In this document: positions 1-5,929 of the stretch, piece after piece | How the letters are laid out: each line of letters begins with the position of its first letter | How positions within the stretch are numbered: the stretch's first letter is position 1 | Assembly (NCBI GenBank): GCA_023244795.1 | Contig: JAHFLR010000043.1 | Span: 1 to 5,984, forward strand | Source: a bacterium | Lineage (GTDB): Bacteria; Patescibacteriota; Minisyncoccia; UBA9983 | Length of the DNA: 5,984 nucleotides | Direction of reading: 5' to 3' | Translations under genes and position numbers: made by a program | Notes under the pieces: model-generated | What the model saw: only the letters and a program-made list of their open reading frames with translations | The model's database searches: none | Told to the model about the DNA's origin: nothing

Positions 1-20
1 TAATCTAAGAAGTTAGATTA
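1..20 (-). terminator. Hairpin at the 3' end of the pilin gene, possible transcription terminator
   Basis: On the coding strand the sequence reads TAATCTAA-CTTC-TTAGATTA, a perfect 8-bp inverted repeat around a 4-base loop. The stem has only one G:C pair, so it is weak, and any U-tract would lie beyond the window edge. It overlaps the pilin stop in the annotated frame (TAG at 5-7, in the second arm) and begins exactly at the TAA (18-20) that would end the pilin in the -1 frame. The position at the end of the operon's last visible gene suggests a terminator or a 3'-end stabilising hairpin. The arms might extend beyond base 1, which cannot be seen. Confidence 0.4.
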
Positions 21-541
21 TGGCTTAACGTCGTAGCAGTTATCGGTAGCGGCGCCAGGGCGGCACATCCCGTTTTTGCTCCGTCGAAAATGGCTGTGCT
101 GTCAGCATCGTTAGCAAGAGCCGGGTTGGCGGAATCTTCTAGTATTGACGCCAAATGATATGACTGGCAATCCTTGGCTGCTGCTGTACAAGCAGTTCCG
201 TCTGTTTTGGAGGCCGCATAGACATAGTAATTAGTGGCGCTTCCCGCTACTGGATCCTTTGGCAAGCTAGGAATCAGGTTGTCTGTTACCAAGCCAGCCA
301 AGTCGGTGGCAAAAGTAGCGGCAGTAACTCCGGATGATGCCGGGTATACTTGTCCGTTTTTGTCGTAAGACATCTCCAGCGCTGTTTTAACGTTAGCGAT
401 ATCGCTGATTCTTCTTGCGTCTCTTGATTTCTGCCTGGCGCTGTTCATGGAAGCGATAACGACAGAGGAGAGGATACCGATAATGGCGATAACGACCAAC
501 AACTCAATAAGCGTAAAACCTTTTTTATTACTTTTAATCAT
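5..541 (-). CDS. Type IV prepilin (pilA-like / GspG-like), probable frameshift near the C-terminus
   Basis: This is a precursor of the structural pilin or a major pseudopilin of the T4P fibre, 178 residues as read. It has a short basic leader (residues 1-8, MIKSNKKG) and the class III signal GFTLIELLVVIAIIGIL. Prepilin peptidase should cut after Gly8, leaving Phe9 as residue +1 and Glu13 as the conserved +5 Glu. Residues 9-30 form the hydrophobic N-terminal helix, followed by a charged helix (RQKSRDARR) and a small C-terminal head with an SLPKDP motif near 92-97. Cysteines are at 118, 125 and 159. The odd count, and a better tail in the -1 frame after Lys156 (with Cys at 160 and 169, ending CYDVKP at 18-20), suggest that the last 22 residues are out of frame. 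The ATG at 541 follows an A-rich leader with no Shine-Dalgarno. The gene stands 123 bp after pilC behind a possible promoter of its own. The N-terminus is certain to family level; major versus minor pilin is not decidable. Confidence 0.93.
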   Translation of the reverse strand: MIKSNKKGFTLIELLVVIAIIGILSSVVIASMNSARQKSRDARRISDIANVKTALEMSYDKNGQVYPASSGVTAATFATDLAGLVTDNLIPSLPKDPVAGSATNYYVYAASKTDGTACTAAAKDCQSYHLASILEDSANPALANDADSTAIFDGAKTGCAALAPLPITATTLSHNLTS

Positions 542-5091: not shown

Positions 5092-5391
5092 TTAAAAACT
5101 GGTAAACGGATTGCTAATACCAGCTTCCTCTGATGGCGGTCTTTTGTAAAAATCCCGAAGGCTGGTAAAAGTGGGGTCGTTTAAAAAAGCGGTGTCGAGT
5201 TTGAGATTCTTTAAGATATTGGCCACCTGTTGAAAGTCTTCTCCAAACAAGTTCTCTCCTTGCACTTCGGTGATGACCCCAGTGGCCGCTTCCGGAGCCT
5301 GTGTGTAGGTGTAATAAACGTAATAACCGGCTAACCCCAAAATAAGAGCAAGCGCTACAACGAATTTTAATGTTTTGCTAATTCCCTGCAT
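5092..5391 (-). CDS. Small single-pass membrane protein of the pilus cluster, function unknown
   Basis: This 99-residue protein has a short basic N-terminus, one hydrophobic segment (about 10-27, LALILGLAGYYVYY core) and an external or periplasm-like remainder. A low-complexity linker (30-45) leads to a helix-like stretch (50-65), and then LNDPTFTSLRDFYKRPP followed by a terminal NPF (94-96). It has no cysteine, so it is not a PilP-type lipoprotein, although it occupies the place pilP holds after pilO in proteobacterial pilMNOPQ operons. From memory, short proteins with a similar F..L.DF...P......NPF tail follow pilO in other Patescibacteria pilus loci; this is unverified. Its ATG lies inside the end of pilO (14-bp overlap in another frame), pointing to translational coupling and a fixed ratio to PilO. 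A part in the PilN/PilO alignment complex is inferred. The family name is unknown to me. Confidence 0.82.
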   Translation of the reverse strand: MQGISKTLKFVVALALILGLAGYYVYYTYTQAPEAATGVITEVQGENLFGEDFQQVANILKNLKLDTAFLNDPTFTSLRDFYKRPPSEEAGISNPFTSF

Positions 5392-5929
5392 AATAGGTTA
5401 CGGCTTTTACGCTAAAATCATAAGAATCGACCTTGCCCGAAGAATTAAAACTAATCTCTTTGATATCCATAACTTGTAAGCTCTTCTCTAGATCGGATAA
5501 AAAGTTTAAGAACACTTCGTAAGAGCCGGTAGCGGTAAAGACTAGGGCCACAGAGTTGTATTTAGCCGGCTCGCCGGATGGAGTGAGCTCTGCCTTCTTG
5601 CCGGATTTTGGCTCTTCAATGTTAATATTCTTTAGAATCATGCCGCGAGATTTGGCCATGTCGTCTATTTGGTAAACAAGGTTGACTGCGCTTATTTGCT
5701 TTGGTAGCGCTCGGTCCAACTTGGCGTTATCTTCGTTGCTGATGCTGCCATATTTGGCCAAGATGTCGTTTCTTATTTTTTCCAAGTTATCGAATTCTTT
5801 TAGCGCCTCCGTGAGCCTAGCATCTTTGATACTGCTGGCTTTTATGTCATTTAACGAGGGAATGGTTAATCCAAAAAACATGGCGATCGCGCCTCCCAAA
5901 AATATCAACGTTGTTAATATTCTCATCAT
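5378..5929 (-). CDS. pilO: Type IV pilus alignment protein PilO
   Basis: This is a 183-residue bitopic protein of the PilO/GspM-like family, which pairs with PilN to link the inner-membrane platform to the rest of the pilus machine. A single membrane segment lies at about 4-24. It is followed by a charged, probably coiled-coil helix (about 30-60, ALKEFDNLEKIRNDILAKYG) and then a C-terminal alpha/beta fold (about 78-180). The pattern VNLVYQIDDMAKSRGMILKN ... YEVFLNFLSDLEKS ... MDIKEISF is the recurring ferredoxin-like arrangement of PilO. Two ATGs stand in tandem at 5929 and 5926, and either could start the protein. The first is 5 bp after the preceding stop, with no Shine-Dalgarno. It ends with TAG inside the start of the next gene. 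Assignment rests on topology, fold pattern and position directly upstream of pilB; sequence conservation in this family is low. Confidence 0.85.
   Translation of the reverse strand: MMRILTTLIFLGGAIAMFFGLTIPSLNDIKASSIKDARLTEALKEFDNLEKIRNDILAKYGSISNEDNAKLDRALPKQISAVNLVYQIDDMAKSRGMILKNINIEEPKSGKKAELTPSGEPAKYNSVALVFTATGSYEVFLNFLSDLEKSLQVMDIKEISFNSSGKVDSYDFSVKAVTYYAGN

Follow-up and report, generated by a model that had tools for sequence, protein, structure and literature searches.

The out-of-frame end of a type IV pilin gene at a contig end in a Patescibacteriota genome is most likely a one-base sequencing or assembly error

According to the passage of a review that deals with it (PMC4471445), a disulphide usually staples the D-region at the C-terminus of pilins, and in the Saccharibacterium TM7x the loss of a major pilin lowered host binding, according to the part of that study drawn on here (PMC12206443). 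In this work we analysed a type IV pilus locus carried by the window, a stretch of 5984 bases that is one whole contig of a 573-kb genome in 83 contigs, with the pilin gene at one end. Compared with the stapled D-region as that passage of the review describes it, the pilin ORF of the window is without the last cysteine and has only three (118, 125 and 159), whereas the database protein closest to it, P0001, has four (118, 125, 159 and 169), of which two are C-terminal (159 and 169) and one lies in the last predicted strand (169–172); by analogy with other pilins, these two cysteines would form the usual pilin disulphide. The odd number of cysteines in the window ORF goes with a break in the reading frame. 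We propose that this ORF is one base short at positions 58–57, most likely because of a sequencing or assembly error, and that the cell would make a normal 174-residue pilin ending in CYDVKP, a reading drawn from sequence comparison to which we give a probability of about 0.75. The features of the window are listed in Table 1.

Table 1. Features of the window, with positions in the window and strand
Feature	Position	Strand	Basis or remark
Perfect 8-bp inverted repeat, 4-base loop, ending at the contig end	1..20	-	Opens with the pilin stop codon of the −1 frame
Pilin ORF in the window's reading, frame broken close to the 3' end	5..541	-	178 aa, three cysteines; PF07963, TIGR02532
Out-of-frame tail LAPLPITATTLSHNLTS and TAG	5..58	-	0/119 listed homologues matched at E<0.01
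Codons for GAATDNCYDVKP and TAA, other frame	18..56	-	Match the end of P0001; ending common to pilin relatives
Frame break, two bases for codon 162	57..58	-	tblastn of P0001
In-frame pilin part, residues 1–161	59..541	-	Identical to P0001
A5 run, codons agree with P0001, not the break	73..77	-	Sequence and comparison with P0001
PilC/GspF-type platform protein, 400 aa	665..1867	-	PF00482; below NCBIfam cut-offs
PilT-type retraction ATPase, 354 aa	1880..2944	-	TIGR01420 425 bits, cut-off 319.1
Receiver-only response regulator, 130 aa	2955..3347	-	PF00072
PilB/GspE-type assembly ATPase, 570 aa	3359..5071	-	PF00437, PF05157; TIGR02538 494.6 bits, below cut-off 675.65
99-aa ORF, between pilO and pilB	5092..5391	-	One likely membrane segment (by eye)
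PilO-type protein	5378..5929	-	PF04350 25.1 bits, cut-off 22; identical copy on a 6411-base contig

The type IV pilus genes of the window are all on the minus strand, in the order PilO-type gene, 99-amino-acid ORF, PilB/GspE, response regulator, PilT, PilC/GspF and, last, the pilin. The response regulator, which consists of a receiver only, stands between pilB and pilT, and Pfam and NCBIfam searches with the 99-amino-acid ORF gave no match. PilB/GspE proteins have four zinc-binding cysteines near the region that matches the stretch LCPDS ... TCPKG, in which the PilB-type ATPase of the window has, by eye, two cysteines only. When named genomes were searched with PilC, 15 loci were found among the records covered, the nearest of these being 49–57% identical and including Candidatus Terrybacteria, Giovannonibacteria and Taylorbacteria and one Patescibacteria group bacterium, so that the window very probably comes from a member of the Patescibacteria. 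A promoter scan of positions 1–700 gave 2 promoter-like sites, near the number expected from shuffled sequence (1.3), and a terminator scan of the same positions gave 3 candidates, all of them on the plus strand. The pilin ORF carries the prepilin N-terminal cleavage and methylation motif (PF07963, 39.4 bits for a cut-off of 21.2; TIGR02532, 37.4 bits for a cut-off of 16.3), and as judged from its sequence the gene at 5–541 probably encodes a type IV pilin of the ordinary kind and carries a one-base error close to the contig end.

A protein search with the pilin ORF scored 7993 candidates, of which 6591 were at E≤0.001, and the best 120 were listed. P0001, the top match, is a protein of 174 amino acids with two member sequences and a longest contig of 6411 bases; over residues 1–161 the window ORF is identical to it (161/161), and the next best listed matches are at most 61% identical over the aligned part. 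In a tblastn comparison with the window, P0001 is encoded in one frame for residues 1–161, down to base 59, and in another frame for residues 163–174, from base 56 to base 21, followed by TAA, while residue 162 is faced with two bases (58–57) and not three. Relative to P0001, and as deduced from the protein sequence of the latter, the window lacks one base at 58–57. Neither frame of the window encodes the residue that P0001 has at 162, which indicates that the DNA itself differs, and not that the same DNA is read with a slip; ribosomal slippage at the break as the source of P0001 is ruled out on this ground. The preliminary description had noticed that the pilin gene goes out of frame near its end, which this comparison bears out, but it had placed the shift at the A5 run (77–73). 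P0001 shares the annotated frame to residue 161, and the break is 14 bases past this run, at a run of only three C. The positions that it gave for the A5 run, for the TGA (104–102) and for the TAA (20–18) are correct, as are the two tails that it read from the sequence, namely TGCAALAPLPITATTLSH after Lys156 in the annotated frame, in which the ORF ends ...SHNLTS, and NGMCRPGAATDNCYDVKP after the A5 run in the −1 frame.

The tail of P0001, and not that of the window ORF, is the one found in the family. As a test set we used the 119 listed homologues other than P0001, out of the best 120 of 6591. The number of cysteines in these homologues is 2 in 8 proteins, 3 in 1, 4 in 86, 5 in 2 and 6 in 22, hence even in 116/119. 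With respect to their C-terminal ends, 45 show a CYDxxP/N-type ending, 52 a YCxxP/Q-type ending and 21 a YDxxP-type ending, the last one (P0096) having another; 118 of the 119 listed homologues thus have an ending of one of three related types, patterns that were formulated after the endings of the homologues had been viewed, and the window ORF ends in none of them. Used as a short query, the tail of P0001 (residues 157–174) matched 27 of the 119 listed homologues at E<0.01, compared with none of them for the tail of the window ORF (residues 157–178). A profile of the same 119 proteins gave 215.4 bits for P0001 and 204.7 for the window ORF, and its alignment to the latter goes no further than residue 161, where the frame breaks. 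Finally, in an alignment of 45 sequences, in which 43 of the 119 homologues, chosen by eye for their cysteine-type ending, stand with P0001 and the window ORF, and which favours the motif by design, C159 is invariant and C169-Y170-D171 nearly so. These results agree with the proposal, made in the preliminary description, that the −1 frame gives the more plausible C-terminus, ending in CYDVKP. That description had also counted three cysteines in the annotated frame, as we find, and four in the alternative one; the number four stands, with the third cysteine at position 159 and not 160. Four further closed pilin-like frames, distinct from one another, were seen in the genome and lack the CYDxxP ending. 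This counts against the reading proposed here, although these frames are other pilins, and suggests that the ending is a trait of a subfamily rather than of all the pilins of this genome. Two pilin-like frames (207 and 235 amino acids) lie close together on another contig of the genome (C74), and their endings are unlike those of the family of the window pilin.

The AlphaFold2 model of P0001 has a pilin fold (pLDDT 84.4), with a helix at 11–61, strands, and a last strand at 169–172 that contains Cys169. In the model of the window ORF (pLDDT 82.2) a last strand is still drawn, at 172–177, and confidence in the tail blocks is moderately lower (60, 52 and 75, vs 68, 69 and 89 for P0001), a comparison in which the alignments behind both models are made of cysteine-ending homologues and are biased toward the P0001 tail. 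The predicted structure may therefore be said to favour the P0001 tail over the window tail only weakly. When the P0001 model was compared by Foldseek with solved structures, the best match was a type IVb pilus subunit (E 1.5e-4, TM 0.50 by query), which was also the sole match at E≤0.001 among 71. The predicted P0001 structure combines the long N-terminal helix and the globular head of pilins.

An origin for P0001 is suggested by a control search with PilO, which lies at the opposite end of the window. The best match, P0121, is identical over 183/183 residues and is on a contig listed as 6411 bases, so that P0001 and P0121 are both listed with a contig of this size, vs 5984 bases for the contig of the window. 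One contig of 6411 bases, about 427 bases beyond the size of the window, would thus carry the whole locus, and P0001 probably stems from an assembly that extends further over this locus. We also looked for another contig of this genome that overlaps the window's end; the first 150 bases of the window had no match at E≤10 in the other contigs of the genome. The inverted repeat that ends the contig was folded within 30 bases (−4.4 kcal/mol, z −2.88; 6 of 200 shuffles were as good) and no other perfect copy of it was found in the genome; it is possibly a terminator stem, the T tail of which would lie past the contig end.

The likeliest account of these observations is that the missing base is an error. 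Support for the consensus is often poor at contig ends, and here the one-base error would have arisen within 58 bases of the contig end. Since a protein identical over residues 1–161 runs on to the usual ending of the relatives, the odd tail is likely to be a sequencing or assembly slip, and we infer that the missing base is not a real allele. Nevertheless, the error profiles described for Illumina reads, in the parts of the two studies used here, set a limit on this reading. Substitutions are the main error and indel rates are very low, the 3-mers most common before deletions being AAA and TTT (PMC4787001); the context of the break differs from these, and the platform used for this genome may not be Illumina. 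Because Illumina indels are rare according to this source, we do not place the error reading above the probability given at the outset. GGC motifs and inverted repeats have been linked to Illumina miscalls (PMC3622629, PMC4787001). GGC is, in the same part of the first of these studies, no reliable predictor of error-prone positions (PMC3622629), and since substitutions dominate and indels are very rare in these sources, a GGC-motif sequencing error is not claimed here as the cause.

Among the alternatives, the one that best withstands the evidence is a real one-base deletion allele present in part of the population, in which the last 13 residues of the pilin are replaced and one cysteine is lost, the contig stopping where the assembly graph branches. 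Two versions of the pilin are indeed on record, that of the window and P0001, and the break is close to a contig end, where graphs would be expected to branch for alleles as they do for errors; the P0001 cluster counts two member sequences, the second of which is not necessarily the window's version. However, the tail that this allele would encode has no counterpart at E<0.01 among the 119 homologues listed, the conserved cysteine near the end is missing from it, and there is no further close copy with this tail among the listed matches, in which identity falls to 61% or less after P0001. We consider such an allele unlikely. If it were real, it would mean that the pilus surface varies in a group to which TM7x belongs, where the loss of a major pilin lowered host binding; that part of a Patescibacteria population would have a rewritten, cysteine-poor pilin C-terminal end, with two pilus surfaces in one population, is still more doubtful.

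It is very improbable that the exposed pilin end is switched at the A5 run, whether by slippage in the homopolymer or by a −1 shift of the ribosome: by eye, this run exceeds every other homopolymer in 57–101, and from it onward the −1 frame is open, but P0001 keeps the annotated frame across the five A's and for four codons after them, no X_XXY_YYZ heptamer of the kind used in programmed −1 frameshifting is seen by eye at the A5 run (GCA AAA ACG) or at 58–57, and the break, at a run of only three C, is outside the tract in which phase variation would change the length. A frame break at the A5 run is ruled out by the residues of P0001 across it; residues 155–161 of P0001 are the same as in the annotated frame, so five A's fit and neither tRNA-Lys slippage nor phase switching is needed. 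Of the three causes put forward in the preliminary description, a sequencing or assembly error is therefore the best fit, at another position than it supposed, whereas phase switching and tRNA-Lys slippage at the A5 run are not supported; its remark that this run is not a canonical slip site is confirmed.

In conclusion, the comparison with P0001 and its relatives argues for an error that breaks an otherwise normal pilin gene. Close to the end of a contig, a slip of one base can mimic a surface protein that is phase-variable or recoded, and for pilins of such a kind an even number of cysteines together with a conserved C-terminal motif provides a quick check of the frame. The case resembles the frameshift errors of draft assemblies, as described in the part of PMC12007338 used here, in that an indel-type error likewise breaks an otherwise conserved gene; that work concerns long-read assemblies, and the platform of the window may differ. 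Compared with the Patescibacteria-type type IV pilins (PF07963, TIGR02532), the N-terminal GFTLIELLVVIAIIG segment, the long first helix and the strands are also present in the window pilin, its gene likewise comes after pilC, pilT, pilB and pilO, and the CYDxxP C-terminal ending is seen in P0001; the sole difference is in the last 17 residues of the window ORF, which are probably not real.
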